DNA of 64,000 nucleotides, from NCBI RefSeq assembly GCF_000716715.1, contig NZ_JNYJ01000025.1, positions 88,352 through 152,351 of the forward strand, written 5' to 3'. Position numbers and translations under genes: made by a program. Numbering within the stretch: the first letter of the stretch is position 1; the number at the start of each line of letters is the position of its first letter. Source of the stretch: Dactylosporangium aurantiacum (GTDB lineage: Bacteria > Actinomycetota > Actinomycetes > Mycobacteriales > Micromonosporaceae). Below, in pieces: positions 30,980-38,674 of the stretch. The notes beneath the pieces were generated by a model. It was not told where the DNA came from and searched no databases. It saw nothing but the letters and a program-made list of their open reading frames with translations.

Positions 30980-33853
30980 CTACTCCTGCGCGAGGAGCTG
31001 GGCAGTGGGCAGCCGGTGCAGCATGGCGATCGGCACCGACATGGCCAGGGTCGACACCACCACACCGGCCGCGAACGCGGCCACCGCGCACCACACCAGC
31101 GGCGCGGTGACGGCACCGGCGAAGACGGCGGCGGCGCCGAGCCCGAGGGCGGCGCCGGCGGTCCCACCGAAGGCGCCCATGGTGACCGCCTCGGTGCCGA
31201 CCATGCGGCGCAGCGTCGCGTCGGGCCAGCCGGTCGCGCCGAGCAGGGCCAGCTCCGTCGCGCGTTCGGAGATGTTCAGGTACAGCACGTCGCTGACCGA
31301 GGCGATGCCCAGCACGATCGTGACGATGACGGCGAGGTAGTCCACGGTGCGCGCCTGCACCGCGACGGCCTCGCCGAGCAGGGTGCCCACGACGGCGCCG
31401 CGGAACGCGAACGTGATGGCCAGCAGCATGGTCAGCGCGGCGACGCCGATGGCGAGGCTCGCCGCGCCGAGCGCGGTGCGGCCGGGCGTCCGGGCCAGGT
31501 TCGCCAAGGCGAGCCCGGGCACCCGGCGCGGGGTCCGCCGGCGGGCCGACGGCGCCGACACGGCGGGACGCACGGCGACGGCCGGGTCGGCGCGGGCCGC
31601 CCGCCAGGCGGGCCAGATCCCGGCCGCGACGGACAGCAGCACGGCGACCGGCACCGCGAGCAGCGCGTGCAGCCAGCCGATGTCCAGCCCGAAGGCGAAG
31701 GCTATCGGCACCGCCAGGACCGTGCCGGCCACACCGGCGGCCAGGCCGACGCCGACGACCTCGGTGAGCAGCAGCCGCAGCAGCTGCCGCCGGCTCCAGC
31801 CGAGGCAGGCCAGCACGCCCAGGTCGGCGCGGCGGGAGCGGGTGGCGGCGTTGGTGGCGTTGAGCACGGCGAGCGCGCACACGGCCAGGACCAGCCCGGA
31901 CAGCAGGGCGCTCTTGCGGTCGGCGGCGCGCACCAGCACCGCCGCGACGCCCTTCTTCACCCACGGCTCGTCGACGGCCAGGTCGGGCCGGCCGAAGCGG
32001 CCCGCCGGGTAGTGCACGGTGACGCCCGTCGGCGACGAGCCGAGGGTGATGTCGACCTGCAGGCCGGTGCGCTCGGCGATGCGTTCGGCGACGAGCCGGA
32101 CCCGTTCCCGGGAGGCGGCGTCGGTGCCGATGTCGCCCGCCAGCCGCACGCGCACCATGCTGATCGGTGCGGCCCGGTTGAGCTGGTACTCGGGGTAGCC
32201 GGGCTCGGTGCCGTAGCCGTCGGGGCCGAAGATGGCCGGCAGCGCGCCCATCGTGGTGAGCATGAGCGGCGGCTGGCTGAGCAGCCCGCTGACGTTGGCG
32301 TTGGGCTCCAGGCGCCGGCCGCCCAGCGCGCGGCGGGACGCGTCGTCGGCGCCTTCGGCACCGGGGTTGAAGTACGTGTCCATCGGCACCGCGGACAGGG
32401 CGCTGCCGAGCTGGATGCGTTTCGGGTCGAACGTGCCGACGGCGTCGATCGTGACGTCGGGCATGACGATGTCGCCCACGCCGACGTCGTGCTCGGCGAC
32501 GATGTTCGGGTGGGCGGCGACGCCCCCGCGCACCCCGGTGTCGGCGAACTCCATCGGCACCGGGTGGCCGGAGTCGCCGGAGTCGGCGCCCTGGCCCCAG
32601 ATCTTCAGGTCGTACGGGACCTGGCGGGTGCGCAGGCCGTCGCCGTCGGGGTCGGTCGCGGCGGGGCCGACGGTCCAGAACCGGTCCAGCCACACGGTGT
32701 TGGACACCGCCATGTCCTCGGCGCCGTGCTGCAGGGGGTGCCGCATCCGGTCGACGAGGTCGCGGTAGGGTCCGTCGATGGTCACGGTCCGGGTCTGCAC
32801 CGACCGGCCGGGCCGGCCGAGCAGGGCGGCGCGCAGCGCCTGGTTGTCGGTGCCGGTGCGGACCAGCTGCACCGCGTCGCCGCCCATGCGCTGGACGTCC
32901 AGCTCCAGCCGGGCGTCGATCTGCGGGCTGTCGGCGACGAGGATCGGCAGCGCCGAGTACGGGTACGGCATGCCGTCGAGCCGTCGCTGCGGCGGTACCT
33001 CGCCGGGGGTGAAGTAGCGGCCGGACGTGACGGCCTTGTCCAGCCCGGCGAGCGCCGCCTCCGCCTGCGGGTCGACGGCGGCCATCAGGAACGGCACCGA
33101 CCACGCGAGGGTCACCGCCGGAACGGCCGGCCGGCCCAGCTCGTCGGCGGATCCGGGGCCGCCGACGCAGGTCAGCGAGGAGCGCCCCTGCGGGTCGGTC
33201 GGGTCGATCCAGTCCCGCTGGCCGATGGACGGCACGTACGGGCAGATCCGGGTCCGGCCGCCGTCCGGGTCGAGCTCCTCCGGCGGCGGCGCGCCCTCGC
33301 CGCTGCGCCATTCCGACAACGGCTTCTGGTAGAGCACGTTGCGGGTGGCGTACAGGTACGCCGCCCCGTCGGGGATGCGGGACAGGCCGGCGTCGGTGAC
33401 CCAGGTCGGCTGGACGCGCAGCACCTGCCGCTGCGCGGCCGGGTCGAGGTCGCCGGCGAGGTCGACCCTCACCGGGACGGTCCGCATGATGTAGCCGATG
33501 ACCGCGACCGGCGCGGCCACGGCCACGTCGCGAATGCCCTGGATCTCCCGCCATTGATCGACGGTGATACCGCCGCGCATTCCGGCGAGCTGCCCGGACT
33601 GCACCAGGTTGCGTTGCCGCTCCAGTTCCAGGGCGCTGCCGCCGGGGCGGATCAGGATGTCGTACGCGGGGCGGAAATTGGCCTGCACGGTGCCGACCGC
33701 GTCCAGCCGGGCGGTGACGGCCGCGGCGGTGAGCACGGTGAACCCGACGACCGCCACGGTGATCATCGACAGCAACGCCAGTGACCGGCGGGCCTGCCGG
33801 CGCCAGTGCGCGACGGCCATGCCCAGCACGGTGTGCGGCGTCGATCGAGACAT
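30980..33853 (-). CDS. Large FtsX/MacB-type ABC transporter permease
   Basis: 957 residues. One membrane helix at about 25-45 (LALLSMITVAVVGFTVLTAAAV), a very large extracytoplasmic region (about 50-580), three helices with an FtsX-like domain (about 585-720, including ADLGVLACLGWSRRQLLRLLLTEV) and a second FtsX-like set (about 760-950, including ATELALLGATGWPDATLRRMVGTEAVTMGAFGG). Such permeases work with an ATPase of the LolD/MacB type in lipoprotein or peptide export or in cell-envelope control. No such ATPase is adjacent. The promoter at 33894-33921 overlaps a LacI-like operator element. Confidence 0.85.
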   Translation of the reverse strand: MSRSTPHTVLGMAVAHWRRQARRSLALLSMITVAVVGFTVLTAAAVTARLDAVGTVQANFRPAYDILIRPGGSALELERQRNLVQSGQLAGMRGGITVDQWREIQGIRDVAVAAPVAVIGYIMRTVPVRVDLAGDLDPAAQRQVLRVQPTWVTDAGLSRIPDGAAYLYATRNVLYQKPLSEWRSGEGAPPPEELDPDGGRTRICPYVPSIGQRDWIDPTDPQGRSSLTCVGGPGSADELGRPAVPAVTLAWSVPFLMAAVDPQAEAALAGLDKAVTSGRYFTPGEVPPQRRLDGMPYPYSALPILVADSPQIDARLELDVQRMGGDAVQLVRTGTDNQALRAALLGRPGRSVQTRTVTIDGPYRDLVDRMRHPLQHGAEDMAVSNTVWLDRFWTVGPAATDPDGDGLRTRQVPYDLKIWGQGADSGDSGHPVPMEFADTGVRGGVAAHPNIVAEHDVGVGDIVMPDVTIDAVGTFDPKRIQLGSALSAVPMDTYFNPGAEGADDASRRALGGRRLEPNANVSGLLSQPPLMLTTMGALPAIFGPDGYGTEPGYPEYQLNRAAPISMVRVRLAGDIGTDAASRERVRLVAERIAERTGLQVDITLGSSPTGVTVHYPAGRFGRPDLAVDEPWVKKGVAAVLVRAADRKSALLSGLVLAVCALAVLNATNAATRSRRADLGVLACLGWSRRQLLRLLLTEVVGVGLAAGVAGTVLAVPIAFAFGLDIGWLHALLAVPVAVLLSVAAGIWPAWRAARADPAVAVRPAVSAPSARRRTPRRVPGLALANLARTPGRTALGAASLAIGVAALTMLLAITFAFRGAVVGTLLGEAVAVQARTVDYLAVIVTIVLGIASVSDVLYLNISERATELALLGATGWPDATLRRMVGTEAVTMGAFGGTAGAALGLGAAAVFAGAVTAPLVWCAVAAFAAGVVVSTLAMSVPIAMLHRLPTAQLLAQE

Positions 33854-34130: not shown

Positions 34131-34640
34131 TCACCGGTCCGCGGTCCGGAGATCAGCGACGACCACACCGACGACGTGCCGCAGGGGCAGCAGGCCCCAG
34201 GCGCGCGAGTCGACGCTGTGCGGGCTGTCGCCGAGCACCACCATCGAGCCCGCCGGGACCAGGGCGGCCGCGCGGGGTGCCGGTGCCGCCGCTTCGAGCG
34301 GCTCGGGCACCTCGGTGCCGGCGGGCCGGTCGAGGGCCGGGAGCACGGCGTCGGGCACGGCGTCGCCGGGCAGCGCGACCAGCCGCTTGACCAGGTACGG
34401 GTTGCGGTGCACCGCCGCCGCGGCGGCCGCACCGGCCAGCGCCGCCTGCCGCAGCACGACCACCGCCCCGACGACCGGCCGGCGCCGGCGGCTCACCAGC
34501 AGCCGGTCCCCGTCCCGGTACGTCGGCTCCATGCTCGCGCCGGCCACCGTCACGATCAGCAGCGACCGGCGCACTGCCAGCACCACGGCCAGCCCACACA
34601 CTCCGGCGGCGATCACCACGTACAGCCACATCTGCGACAT
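34131..34640 (-). CDS. S26-family signal peptidase, divergent partner of the Cys-rich peptide locus
   Basis: 169 residues. An N-terminal membrane anchor (about 6-24) is followed by the nucleophile motif ASMEPTYRDGDRLLV (Ser36) and the general-base motif YLVKRLVALPGD (Lys85), the Ser/Lys dyad of type I signal peptidases; VPAGSMVVLGDSPHSVDSRAWGLLP is the box containing GDSxxSxDSR. The enzyme cuts after A-x-A on the outer face of the membrane. Its neighbour across 50 bases is a MauE-like gene, and the peptide at 38404 has a KASA-C boundary, so it is a candidate leader peptidase for that peptide. The message appears leaderless. Confidence 0.85.
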   Translation of the reverse strand: MSQMWLYVVIAAGVCGLAVVLAVRRSLLIVTVAGASMEPTYRDGDRLLVSRRRRPVVGAVVVLRQAALAGAAAAAAVHRNPYLVKRLVALPGDAVPDAVLPALDRPAGTEVPEPLEAAAPAPRAAALVPAGSMVVLGDSPHSVDSRAWGLLPLRHVVGVVVADLRTADR

Positions 34641-34646
34641 TCGTGG

Positions 34647-34676
34647 AGTATGCGATTATTCGCCGCATACGGTCAA
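34647..34676 (-). promoter_or_regulatory. Leaderless promoter of the S26 peptidase gene
   Basis: On the minus strand TTGACC (34676-34671) and CATACT (34652-34647) are 18 bases apart, and the ATG at 34640 follows after six bases, so transcription would start at the start codon. Confidence 0.5.
34648..34670. promoter_or_regulatory. Inverted repeat between the divergent S26 and MauE-like genes
   Basis: GTATGCG (34648-34654) and CGCATAC (34664-34670) form a perfect 7-bp inverted repeat with a nine-base spacer inside the promoter of the peptidase gene. A regulator bound here could control both arms of the locus. Confidence 0.45.
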
Positions 34677-34690
34677 CGGAGCGGGCCGCC

Positions 34691-35263
34691 GTGCTGTTCC
34701 TGCTGATCCTCATCCCGCTCGGCACCCTCGCGACCTCCGCGGCCGCGAAGCTGCGCGGGCGGGCCGCGTTCACCGGGTTCGCCACGGCCACCGCCACGCT
34801 CGGGCGCCTGCCGCGCCGCCTCGCCACCCCGGCCGCCATTGCCGTGCTGGCCACCGAGACGGCGCTGGCCGCCGCCCTCGCCGGCGCCGTCGCCGCACCC
34901 GGGCCGCTCGCGCTGCCCGCGCTGACCGCGACCACGGCCCTGTTCGGCGCCTTCACCACCGTCCTGGCCGTCGCCCGCCGCGCCGGCACCGCCGGGTCCT
35001 GCCACTGCTTCGGGCCGTCGAAGGAGCCCGTCGCGGCCCGGCACGTCGCCAGGGCCGCGGCCCTCGCCGGGCTCGCCGCCGCCGGTACCGTCGCCGCCGC
35101 CGTCGCGCCACGGGCCCTCGACCCCGCCGGTCAGCCCCCGGCGGTCCTGTTCCTCAACGCCTGCACCGCACTGGCCGCCGTCGCCGTCGCCGCCGGCCTG
35201 GACACCCTCGCCTGGCTGCTCCGGCGCCCCGGCACACCGCCGTCACCCTGGAGGAATCCGTGA
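34691..35263 (+). CDS. MauE/DoxX-like membrane redox protein
   Basis: 190 residues with four to five membrane helices. The N-terminal helix LFLLILIPLGTLATSAAAKL, the FATATATLGRLP loop and the conserved AGTAGSCHCFGPSKEPVA with a CxCFG motif are characteristic of MauE-family proteins. MauE works with the thioredoxin-like MauD in forming the many disulfides of the methylamine dehydrogenase small subunit. Here it overlaps a TlpA/MauD-like gene by GTGA, so the pair probably forms a disulfide-forming module for the Cys-rich peptide downstream. The GTG at 34691 has GGAG eight bases upstream and is preferred to an earlier in-frame GTG at 34643. Confidence 0.8.
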   Translation: MLFLLILIPLGTLATSAAAKLRGRAAFTGFATATATLGRLPRRLATPAAIAVLATETALAAALAGAVAAPGPLALPALTATTALFGAFTTVLAVARRAGTAGSCHCFGPSKEPVAARHVARAAALAGLAAAGTVAAAVAPRALDPAGQPPAVLFLNACTALAAVAVAAGLDTLAWLLRRPGTPPSPWRNP

Positions 35264-35775
35264 CCCTGCTGTACGCCGTCACCGCGGTGCTCACGGTGGC
35301 CGTCGCCGCCGACCTGCTCGTCAGCGGCGCCGTGCTGCGCCGCCTGCGCGACCTCGAGGCCCGCCTCGACCGCGACGCCGCCCCCGTCGGGCTGCCGCTC
35401 GGCGCGCCCCTGCCGGCCGCCGCGCTGCGGCACCACCCCGACCTCGCCACCACCCCGTTGCTCCTCGGGTTCTTCTCCACCACCTGCCGGTACTGCCCCG
35501 ACCAGGCGGCACTGCTCGCCGAGCGGGCCGCCGCGTACACCGGCGCCGGCATCCGCGTCGTCAGCGTCGTGGTGACCGCGCCCGGCGACGACACCACCGC
35601 CCTGACCCGCGTGCTCGGCGCCGCCGGACCGGTCATCGTCGAGACCGGCCCGGGCGAGCTCATGACCGCGTTCAGCACGTTCGGCACGCCGACGTTCCTG
35701 CACTTCGACGCCGCCGGGACGCTGACCGCCCGCGGGGTCACCGTCGACGACGTCCCGCTGCCCGTCCGGTCATGA
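35260..35775 (+). CDS. TlpA/MauD-like membrane-anchored thioredoxin-fold protein
   Basis: 171 residues. An N-terminal membrane helix (about 3-26) is followed by a thioredoxin fold: LLLGFFSTTCRYCPDQAALL carries the CxxC active site (Cys76-Arg-Tyr-Cys79) and FSTFGTPTFLHFDAAGTL the cis-Pro loop (TPT). It should exchange disulfides outside the membrane. Start GTG overlaps the MauE-like stop, and its own stop overlaps the ABC gene start (ATGA), so the three are translationally coupled. MauD proteins share this architecture. Confidence 0.85.
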   Translation: MTLLYAVTAVLTVAVAADLLVSGAVLRRLRDLEARLDRDAAPVGLPLGAPLPAAALRHHPDLATTPLLLGFFSTTCRYCPDQAALLAERAAAYTGAGIRVVSVVVTAPGDDTTALTRVLGAAGPVIVETGPGELMTAFSTFGTPTFLHFDAAGTLTARGVTVDDVPLPVRS

Positions 35776-37595
35776 CCGTGGACGACGAGATCGGCACCGC
35801 CGGGCGGCTGCGGCTGCTCGCCGCGGCCACCGCCCTCTACCTGCGGGCCGCTCCGGCCGCCGCGGTCCTGCGCGGCGTGCTCACCGTCGCCGGCGGCATC
35901 GCACCGGTCGCCATCGCCTGGTGTACCAAGGTGCTCCTCGACCGGCTCGCGCACGGCGACGGCGGCACCCCGCTGTGGCCCGTCGCCGGCATCGCCGGGG
36001 TCGCCACCGGCTGGGCCGTCGCCAACCACGCCGGCCGGTACCTCGAACAGGAGATCGCCCGCCGGGTCACGCTGCGCACCCAGCTGGAGCTGTTCACCGC
36101 CGTGTCCCGCCCGCCCGGCCTCGCCGAGCTGGAGAGCCCGGCGTTCCACGACCGGCTGCAGCTCGCCCGCCAGGCCAGCCAGATGGCCCCGGCACAGCTC
36201 ACCGGCGCCGTGCTGTCGATCGCGCAGACCACCGTCACCACCGTCGGGTTCACCGCCACCCTCGCCGCCGGCTCACCCCTCGTCGCCGGGCTCGTGCTGC
36301 TGTCCACCGTGCCGGCGCTGCTCGCCCAGCTGCGGCTCGGCCGGCACCGCAGCCGCACCCTCGTGCGCATCACCCCCGGCCTGCGCCGGCAGGTGTTCTA
36401 CGCCGAGCTGCTGCTGGACATGCGCGCCGCCAAGGAGATCCGGCTCTTCGGCCTCGCCGGGTTCTTCCGCGACCGGATGCTCACCGAGCTGCGCGGCGCG
36501 CAGGCCGCCGAGCGCGACACCGACCGGCTGGCACTGCGCGTCGACGGGCTCCTGGCCGTCCTCGCCGGCGCCGTGTCCGTCGCCGCGCTCGCCGTCCTCA
36601 CCACCCGCGTCTGCGCCGGTGACGGCACCGTCGGCGACCTGTCGGTCCTCGTCGCCGCCCTCGCCGCGCTGCAGGGCACCCTCGCCGGCGTGGTCGCCGA
36701 GCTCGCCGCCGCCGGGGAGAGCCTGTCACTGTTCCGCCACTACACGGCCGTGACCGCCGCACCGCCCGCCGCGCCCGCACCGGCCGCCGCACCACCCGCG
36801 ACCGGGGCACCGGTCATCGAGTTCCGCGACGTGTGGTTCCGGTACAGCCCGGCGCACGCGTGGATCCTGCGCGGCGTGTCCTTCACCGTCCCGGCCGGGC
36901 ACTCCCTCGCGCTCGTCGGGGACAACGGCGCCGGAAAGTCCACAGTGGTCAAACTGCTGTGCGGGTTCTACCCGCCGACCCGCGGCACGATCCTCTGGGA
37001 CGGCACGGACATCGGCACCGTCGACCCGGCGGCCCTGCGCGCCAGGATGAGCGCCGTGTTCCAGGACTGCATGGCGTACGAGTTCAGCGCCGCCGACAAC
37101 ATCGCCCTCGGCGACCTCACCGCCCTCGGCGACGACCGGCGGCTGCGCGCCGCGGCCACCGAGGCCGGCATCGACGAGGCCCTCGACCGCCTCCCCCGCG
37201 GCTTCGCCACCCCACTGACCCGCACGTTCAACGACCCCGGCGACACCGACGACGGGGTGGCGCTGTCCGGCGGCCAGTGGCAGCGGCTCGCCCTGGCCCG
37301 CGCCGCCCTGCGCGACCGGGCCGAGCTGCTCATCCTCGACGAGCCGTCGTCCGGCCTCGACGTGTACGCCGAACACGAGATCCACCGCCGGCTCACCGCG
37401 CTGCGGGGCAGGCGCACCTGCCTGCTCATCTCGCACCGGCTCAACGCGGTCCGCGACGCCGACGCGATCGCCGTGCTCAACGGCGGCGTCATCGCCGAGC
37501 ACGGCACGCACGCCATGCTGATGCGCGCCGACGGCACGTACGCGGACATGTTCCGGCTCCAGGCCGGCGGCTACCAGATGGAGCCCGTGCAGTGA
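35772..37595 (+). CDS. ABC exporter (fused permease and ATPase) of the Cys-rich peptide locus
   Basis: 607 residues. The N-terminal membrane domain (about 20-320) is of the exporter type and the ATPase lies at about 350-590: Walker A GDNGAGKST, signature LSGGQWQRLALARA, Walker B LLILDEPSSGLD, switch His in LISHRLNAVRD. There is no N-terminal C39 peptidase domain, so leader removal would need a separate enzyme such as the S26 protein. Half-transporters like this act as homodimers and export peptides or lipids. The gene is coupled to its neighbours by ATGA and GTGA overlaps. Confidence 0.9.
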   Translation: MTVDDEIGTAGRLRLLAAATALYLRAAPAAAVLRGVLTVAGGIAPVAIAWCTKVLLDRLAHGDGGTPLWPVAGIAGVATGWAVANHAGRYLEQEIARRVTLRTQLELFTAVSRPPGLAELESPAFHDRLQLARQASQMAPAQLTGAVLSIAQTTVTTVGFTATLAAGSPLVAGLVLLSTVPALLAQLRLGRHRSRTLVRITPGLRRQVFYAELLLDMRAAKEIRLFGLAGFFRDRMLTELRGAQAAERDTDRLALRVDGLLAVLAGAVSVAALAVLTTRVCAGDGTVGDLSVLVAALAALQGTLAGVVAELAAAGESLSLFRHYTAVTAAPPAAPAPAAAPPATGAPVIEFRDVWFRYSPAHAWILRGVSFTVPAGHSLALVGDNGAGKSTVVKLLCGFYPPTRGTILWDGTDIGTVDPAALRARMSAVFQDCMAYEFSAADNIALGDLTALGDDRRLRAAATEAGIDEALDRLPRGFATPLTRTFNDPGDTDDGVALSGGQWQRLALARAALRDRAELLILDEPSSGLDVYAEHEIHRRLTALRGRRTCLLISHRLNAVRDADAIAVLNGGVIAEHGTHAMLMRADGTYADMFRLQAGGYQMEPVQ

Positions 37596-38341
37596 TCCAC
37601 GTCGGGCTCCTCGGCCCGCTGGAGCTGCGCGTCGACGGCCGCGCCGCGGCGGTCGGCGGGCCCGGCCGGCGCGCCCTCATCGCCGCCCTCGCCCTGGAAC
37701 GCGGCGCCGTCGTCGCCGTGCCCCGGCTCGTCGACGTCATCTGGGACGACGACCCGCCGGTCACCGCGGTCACGAAGGTCCAGGGCCACATCTGCGCGCT
37801 GCGCCGCGAGCTGGGCCGCGCCGGCGCCGCCGCGCTGCAGACCCGCGCCCCCGGGTACCGGCTGGACGCCGCCGCCGTCACCACCGACCTCGACGCCTTC
37901 ACCACCCTCACCGCCGGCGCCGCCCGCCTGACCGGCGCACCGCACGCGGCCCACCGCGCCGAGCTGCTGCTGCGCGCCCTCGCCCTGTGGCGCGGCCCGG
38001 CCTGCGGCGACATCCCCGCCCCGGCGATCCAGACCGCCGCCGCCGGGCTGGAGGAGCGCCGCATGAGCGCCCAGGAGGACCTCGCCGAGGCGATGCTCGC
38101 CCTGCACCGCTACGACGAGGCCGTCGACGTCACCGAGGCGCTCGTGCTGCGCCAGCCGTTGCGGGAGCGGGCCTGGGAGTACCTCATGCGCGGGCACCTC
38201 GGCCGGGGTCGTACCGCCGCCGCGCTGGCCGCCTACGGCCAGGTGCGCCGCATCCTCGCCGACGAGCTCGGCATCCCGCCCGGGCACCGCATCCGCGCCC
38301 TCGCCGGCTCGATCGGCGGCCGACCGTTAGCGGAACGTTAG
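37592..38341 (+). CDS. SARP-type pathway regulator with a TTA codon
   Basis: 249 residues: OmpR-like winged helix (about 1-90; VGLLGPLELRVDGRAAAVGG, LVDVIWDDDPPVTAVTKVQGHICALRREL) and bacterial transcriptional activator domain (about 95-240; AELLLRALALWRGPACGDI, RAWEYLMRGHLGRGRTAAALAAYGQVRRIL). No ATPase follows, as in ActII-ORF4-size SARPs. The fifth codon from the end is TTA (38327-38329), a codon rare in such genomes and often read by the developmentally controlled bldA tRNA. Start GTG overlaps the exporter stop. It probably activates this locus. Confidence 0.88.
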   Translation: MIHVGLLGPLELRVDGRAAAVGGPGRRALIAALALERGAVVAVPRLVDVIWDDDPPVTAVTKVQGHICALRRELGRAGAAALQTRAPGYRLDAAAVTTDLDAFTTLTAGAARLTGAPHAAHRAELLLRALALWRGPACGDIPAPAIQTAAAGLEERRMSAQEDLAEAMLALHRYDEAVDVTEALVLRQPLRERAWEYLMRGHLGRGRTAAALAAYGQVRRILADELGIPPGHRIRALAGSIGGRPLAER

Positions 38342-38403
38342 TGGCCCGGGTGACCGTGTCAGCGGTCCACAGGGTGTCGGACCACCGAAGGGAGTGCGCG
38401 ATC

Positions 38404-38628
38404 GTGACCAGAACCCTCAACCGTCTCGGTGACCGGATGCTCTCCGCGCTGCTGCCCACCGCCAAGGCCTCGGCATGCGTGGGTGACTCGGCCGGCTACT
38501 GCGTGTACCGGTACACCGGCTGCGGCGGCAGCCAGTGTTACCAGTACTACCAGTGTGGTGCTTACTGCCGCGTCTACCAGGGTGGTGTCGGCGGCCAGCT
38601 GATCAACAGCTGGAAGGGCTGCTGCTGA
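38404..38628 (+). CDS. Cysteine-rich peptide precursor, 74 residues, eight Cys
   Basis: GTG start with GAAGGGAG ten bases upstream. Residues 1-24 look like a leader (TLNRLGDRMLSALLPTAKASA) that is amphipathic rather than a Sec signal, ending in A-S-A. The remaining 50 residues contain Cys at 25, 33, 40, 45, 51, 55, 73 and 74, many Tyr and Gly (YCVYRYTGCGGSQCYQYYQC, GAYCRVYQGG) and a C-terminal GCC. Eight Cys could give four disulfides or other crosslinks. It is the last gene of a unit with SARP, exporter, TlpA-like and MauE-like genes, and a terminator follows. I do not recognise the family; the role as exported, oxidatively folded product is inferred from context. TGT and other AT-ending codons are used more than in the neighbours. 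Confidence 0.75.
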   Translation: MTRTLNRLGDRMLSALLPTAKASACVGDSAGYCVYRYTGCGGSQCYQYYQCGAYCRVYQGGVGGQLINSWKGCC

Positions 38629-38644
38629 GGCAGCGGATCACGAC

Positions 38645-38674
38645 CCGGCCGGCATCCACATCGATGCCGGCCGG
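38645..38674 (+). terminator. Terminator of the Cys-rich peptide operon
   Basis: CCGGCCGGCAT and ATGCCGGCCGG form a perfect 11-bp stem with an eight-base loop, 17 bases after the peptide stop codon. Confidence 0.7.

Follow-up and report, generated by a model that had tools for sequence, protein, structure and literature searches.

A candidate cassette for an exported, disulfide-rich mini-protein in Dactylosporangium aurantiacum

Introduction

Pediocin export relies on an ABC exporter with a C39 peptidase domain and on a double-glycine leader. Pediocin-type bacteriocins that come with a thiol oxidoreductase are functionally the nearest characterised systems to the locus described here, a gene cassette around a cysteine-rich peptide gene in a 64,000-nucleotide stretch (the window) of contig NZ_JNYJ01000025.1 of Dactylosporangium aurantiacum. 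As far as the available parts of the sources go, the class IIa bacteriocin pediocin PA-1 (PedC/PedD; PMC4919988, PMC9148482) shares with the cassette a leader peptide, an ABC exporter and an accessory thiol-disulfide protein. The cassette differs in its S26 protease, AxA cleavage site, MauE-like protein, SARP and unrelated, variable cores. Furthermore, a Pfam scan (E up to 0.1) finds no C39 peptidase domain in the window's exporter, as an earlier note made from the sequence alone had stated, and the window leader ends in ASA instead of a double glycine.

The idea of such a cassette has a real precedent, although a partial one. The decRiPPter study (Kloosterman et al. 2020, PMC7794033) reported three Streptomyces candidate families of ribosomally synthesised and post-translationally modified peptides (RiPPs) that contain mauE, one of them also mauD; their precursors have at least eight cysteines, and the authors propose a part in RiPP precursor modification. 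The window shows the same combination, with a mauE homologue in a small cluster alongside a transporter, a peptidase, a regulator and an eight-cysteine precursor. In the accessible portions of that article the product, leader, cleavage site, cysteine parity and spread beyond Streptomyces are not given, and the families are likened to the cassette by description, which falls short of proven identity (PMC7794033). One decRiPPter strain (PMC7794033) belongs to Streptomyces viridosporus, a species that is also represented among the regions we selected by ABC exporter (L249), where the precursor has six cysteines. Among the literature matches listed, no description of the product, leader, S26 site, parity or breadth of such cassettes was found.

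TMcin RiPPs (PMC13252029) resemble the cassette, in the portions of the paper at hand, in that leader removal, disulfide formation and secretion take place at the membrane, but their precursor, which contains a transmembrane helix, is membrane-integrated, and the terms MauE, TlpA and S26 are absent from the text of that paper. In the maturation of methylamine dehydrogenase, MauE is thought to aid disulfide formation, according to the part of the decRiPPter article that treats it (PMC7794033). The MauD/MauE system is like the cassette in pairing MauE with a MauD/TlpA-like partner, whereas its client is an enzyme subunit. The light chain of this enzyme (PF02975) had no match in the host genome, and the control search likewise matched nowhere. 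The maturation protease of nickel superoxide dismutase is also of the S26 type and cuts a non-Sec leader; its substrate differs from the cassette peptide, and the window S26 protein scores 33.6 bits against the corresponding model TIGR02754, below the cut-off of 63.25.

Results

The locus probably serves to make, export and mature a mini-protein of 50 residues and four disulfides, whose role would most likely lie in bacterial competition. Computed here were the gene content (Table 1), its conservation, the leader with its cleavage site and the even number of cysteines.

The regions compared with the window were chosen from larger numbers of matches. The peptide set holds 61 regions, namely the window and 60 fetched ones, of which the first 40 were taken from more than 100 matching places and a further 20 comprise 3 of the host and 17 others. 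Because these had been picked via the peptide itself, two other starting points were used: a MauE set of 40 regions, chosen from a longer match list, and an ABC set made up of the best 80 of 584 matches among named genomes. The ABC set overlaps in part with the others, in which some of its regions recur (e.g. L194/L153, L196/L181 and L250/L068).

The cassette ABC exporter is present in 55 of the 61 peptide-set regions, and near it lie TlpA (54), S26 (53), MauE (49) and SARP (45). The six regions that lack it (L041, L050, L053, L054, L061, L069) stand outside the cassette counts, while their precursors were kept in the count of cysteine parity. Around 54 cassette exporters a crude gene caller returned MauE, SARP, S26, TlpA and the peptide as the commonest gene clusters, followed by an ATPase in 12 regions and a permease in 11. 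The window exporter is 54-59% identical to those of ten window-type relatives.

When the cassettes were selected without the peptide, the precursor was still found beside them. MauE-set regions with ABC, TlpA and S26 contain one in 24 of 25 cases (21 by a leader profile at E up to 0.5, and three, L158, L167 and L183, by a leader-free open reading frame (ORF) search after the profile had missed, L158 being the weakest), those with ABC and TlpA but not S26 in 4 of 8, and the seven without ABC in none, the leader-free search having been run on one of the seven. The 80 ABC-set regions contain TlpA in 75, S26 in 71, MauE in 54, SARP in 35 and a leader-type precursor in 65. Where both TlpA and S26 are present, 63 of 69 regions have a precursor, 59 of them found by profile (including L253, with an odd cysteine number and probably a broken frame) and four by the leader-free search (L252, L254, L262, L270); of the six others, five are on loci of less than 12 kb. 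The remaining one, from Myxococcus vastator (L268), has ABC, TlpA and S26 of the cassette type, and no convincing precursor was found in it.

These counts agree with the earlier note, which expected a cysteine-rich ORF to be kept in homologous loci, and they bear on the alternative that the small ORF is a chance neighbour and no gene of the system. A search of the protein database with the single window sequence, which gave only two homologues with E of 1 or below, would suit that alternative; the 24 of 25 and 63 of 69 cassettes chosen without the peptide make it very improbable. The leader type recurs beside cassette genes in more than 100 fetched regions (a few regions being in two sets), which likewise argues that the peptide is no chance ORF.

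With 48 aligned precursors as the query, the search returned 34 proteins with E no greater than 0.01; their sources include Nocardiopsis, Micromonospora, Nonomuraea and Streptomyces, and those that bear a name are called hypothetical protein. Matches at E up to 0.1 occur in 90 of 354 genomes of the host's family, the weaker ones partly by chance, and when 394 class genomes were searched with a profile, 24 matched, a few only weakly. MauE matched 123 of the 394 class genomes at E up to 1e-10, many merely as distant family. The ABC-set hosts with a precursor include Streptomyces, Nonomuraea, Microbispora, Actinomadura, Lentzea, Amycolatopsis, Nocardiopsis, Nocardia, Cellulosimicrobium and one cyanobacterium, Komarekiella. 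The Komarekiella locus (L270:5655-9749, 41% GC) combines ABC, MauE, TlpA and S26, the last matched in two pieces, with a precursor of its own that is of the shared leader type, has eight cysteines and contains ...VADKLLSGILPEDNAAAFCW.... The host assembly (11.4 Mb) holds five cassettes, that of the window and four more (L102 (C24), L103 (C71), L104 (C6), L152 (C36)), each of the latter with its own 6- or 8-cysteine core. In two regions (L117, L118) three precursors with similar leaders and differing cores stand in tandem beside one cassette.

The leaders are about 24 residues long and carry GD[RK]xL or a motif close to it, in most cases a proline near position 18, and then AxA. An alignment of 24 precursors shows G9, A22 and A24 as invariant and D10 in at least 90%; the ASA of the window leader directly precedes the first cysteine, Cys25. 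A cysteine occurs in one of 170 leaders. A Sec-type hydrophobic stretch is absent, the longest run of A/I/L/V/M/F being 3 residues in the window leader, with a median of 3 and a maximum of 7 among the 170.

Cys, Gly and Tyr abound in the cores, which are more variable than the leaders (mean identity 0.31 versus 0.41 in 2858 random pairs). An AlphaFold2 model of the window core, built with 13 sequences (mean predicted local distance difference test score 84.9), predicts four beta strands, and no convincing or distinctive relative of this model was found among solved structures. The latter result, the inability to name a target and the presence of SARP in 45 of the 55 cassette regions would fit the same disulfide mini-protein acting as a signal or as a developmental or structural peptide of the producer and not as a weapon. 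We regard this as a tentative, rather unlikely option, since the very variable cores and the five host cassettes with different cores would suit a conflict better.

The cysteine number is even almost throughout. The 170 precursors contain 164 distinct cores (identical ones counted once), of which 10 have 4 cysteines, 62 have 6, 73 have 8, 15 have 10 and one has 12, and the odd ones have 3, 7 and 9, one each. When the cores are clustered at 70% identity, 120 of 123 clusters contain even members only; at 50% identity this is true of 48 of 50 clusters, the largest of which holds 92 cores. Control small ORFs from the same regions with at least 5 cysteines are even in 70 of 220 cases, compared to 151 of 153 precursors with at least 5. 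One odd core (L041, 9 cysteines) has no cassette ABC, TlpA or S26 found alongside and a permease in pieces; another (L253) seems to be frame-broken. With 161 of the 164 distinct cores even, the count points to complete disulfide pairing of the core cysteines, and no simpler cause is apparent. The same count speaks against a different use of the cysteines, in which TlpA and MauE would hold them reduced for metal binding and the product would be a secreted metallopeptide or metallophore: full pairing predicts the even series from 4 to 12 that is seen. During cytochrome c maturation, proteins of the TlpA/CcmG type act as reductants, and some cores have as many as 12 cysteines, and yet we judge metal binding improbable.

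The enzymes retain their presumed catalytic residues. Ser36 and Lys85 of S26, which we take to be its catalytic pair, are kept in 53 of 53 cassette relatives, each cysteine of the MauE CxC in 44 of 45, and both CxxC cysteines and Pro144 of TlpA in 44 of 44 aligned relatives; Pro144 is presumably the cis-Pro, and the MauE and TlpA cysteines presumably occupy active-site positions.

An FtsX-like permease is encoded next to the cassette. FtsX-like permeases of such kind are often tied to peptide resistance. Because orthologues (66-73% identical) adjoin the cassette in 9 of the 60 fetched peptide-set regions (L033, L036, L038, L039, L042, L044, L045, L046, L049; pieces in L041), we take the permease to belong to the window's locus. 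It may serve as self-protection (immunity) or as a second transport unit. The extent of 34131..38628 given in the earlier note is thus right for the six features that it contains but leaves the permease out. In L039, L044 and similar relatives an ATPase gene adjoins the permease; no orthologue of this ATPase was found in the window, where the best matches are 35-38% identical, and the closest match of the host to the L039 ATPase (65% identical) is on another contig.

The remaining description of the locus in the earlier note holds in most points. The S26, MauE (CxCFG), TlpA (CRYC) and SARP genes are placed as it claimed, with coordinates and Pfam matches in agreement, although that of TlpA is only weak and below the cut-off. 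The chain of overlapping genes from MauE to SARP rests on three overlaps of 4 bases each (MauE/TlpA, TlpA/ABC, ABC/SARP), and a 74-residue peptide with eight cysteines is indeed encoded, by an ORF that begins with the GTG at 38404 after GAAGGGAG, 62 bases 3' of the SARP gene, and ends in KGCC. The proposed terminator is plausible: there is a 12-bp hairpin 3' of the peptide gene (minimum free energy −34.5 kcal/mol over a 62-base stretch), but no T run. No LanB/C/M, other lanthipeptide, YcaO, radical-SAM or other modifying enzyme was found by the Pfam scan of twelve window genes (six of the cassette, the permease and five flanking ones), again as stated. The note, which placed the product outside the RiPP classes known to it, did not take the decRiPPter precedent (PMC7794033) into account. 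The MauE start is more likely the GTG at 34691 than position 34643, given a well-spaced GGAG and the fact that most relatives begin near there.

The window's gap between S26 and MauE (34641-34690) contains a short palindrome, TATGCG...CGCATA, in place of a TCAA-like/GTTGAC box that, by eye, is common to the gaps of L033, L039, L042, L044, L045, L046 and L049, where it lies 5' of MauE with promoter-like spacing.

Table 1 Features of the locus, in window coordinates
Feature	Position	Strand	Remarks
FtsX-like permease	30983-33853	-	957 aa; PF02687, 2e-18
S26 signal-peptidase-like protease	34134-34640	-	169 aa; Pfam PF10502, 5e-20
MauE-like redox membrane protein, C120-H-C122-F-G (CxCFG)	34643-35263	+	PF07291, 1.6e-15
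TlpA/MauD-like thioredoxin, hydrophobic N-terminus, C76-R-Y-C79 (CRYC)	35260-35775	+	Pfam matches weak, below cut-off
ABC exporter, fused membrane and ATPase domains	35772-37595	+	PF00005, 7.5e-29; PF00664 weak
Small SARP-type activator (BTAD)	37592-38341	+	PF03704, 1e-34
Cys-rich peptide gene	38404-38628	+	74 aa, 8 Cys, GTG start
Precursor leader, VTRTLNRLGDRMLSALLPTAKASA	38404-38475	+	24 aa, without Cys
Predicted mature core	38476-38625	+	50 aa, 8 Cys; alignment, AlphaFold2 model
Possible terminator: hairpin 3' of the peptide gene, without a T run	38645-38674	+	fold

Discussion

We propose the following mechanism. The SARP would turn the locus on, and the peptidase-less ABC exporter would recognise the Cys-free, non-Sec leader of the ribosomally made precursor. 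At the outer face of the membrane the S26 protease would cleave after ASA, and the TlpA-like thioredoxin, anchored in the membrane and assisted by the CxC of MauE, would pair the eight cysteines; a further modifying enzyme would not be required. The product would act outside the cell, likely in bacterial competition, and the FtsX-like permease could protect the producer from it. The order of the steps, the redox direction, the pairing pattern and the biological role are what we infer: export, cleavage and pairing fit because of the even cysteine number, the AxA sites and the conserved S26, MauE and TlpA residues, and a weapon is favoured because the cores are variable, one genome carries five cassettes and an FtsX-like permease is linked. 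The earlier note had likewise seen one system that activates, exports, oxidises and trims a peptide; gene content, conservation, parity and AxA sites uphold the system as a whole, while the individual steps belong to the model.

Several points weigh against this mechanism. TlpA-type proteins can also act as reductants. A strict AxA lies near the core start in 159 of 170 leaders, a count that is partly built in because the split between leader and core was set at [AVST]xA. The precursor filters required at least 3 or at least 4 cysteines, and parity is not fully independent because the cores share ancestry; clustering at 40% identity gives five clusters, 3 of them all-even, a test without power. 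Control small ORFs with at least 4 cysteines are mostly even too (294 of 444), because 4 is their commonest count. L067, with a full cassette and a 7-cysteine core, is a true exception. MauE was not found near the exporter in 26 of 80 ABC-set regions, some of them short, and so is either not strictly needed or escapes detection, and SARP is variable, with its 35 regions of 80. Finally, L170, L174, L175 and L190 combine MauE, TlpA and ABC with an 8-cysteine peptide and have no S26 nearby.

The peptides of these last four regions are like CPPDC...RRQCC and have a leader of a different kind. A six-cysteine, 83-residue ORF (L173:11756-12007) near ABC, TlpA and MauE, with no S26, lacks a leader of the cassette type and was excluded from the precursor counts.

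On a wider scale, we see even chances that these cassettes represent a large natural-product class, i.e. leader-guided, S26-trimmed mini-proteins modified by disulfides only, which would be weapons with rapidly diversifying cores and an even cysteine number (4-12), several per genome, in many actinobacterial families and a cyanobacterium. If so, the actinobacteria contain a large library of stable, gene-encoded mini-proteins with disulfides, most of it still unread, and the machinery that makes them is compact, consisting of one leader, one exporter, one protease and two redox proteins. The leader together with the even-cysteine rule is a simple way of finding such mini-proteins. Such a system would offer a small client on which to test the role of MauE-type proteins, which are known best from methylamine dehydrogenase, and it may provide a bacterial production route for disulfide-rich peptides.

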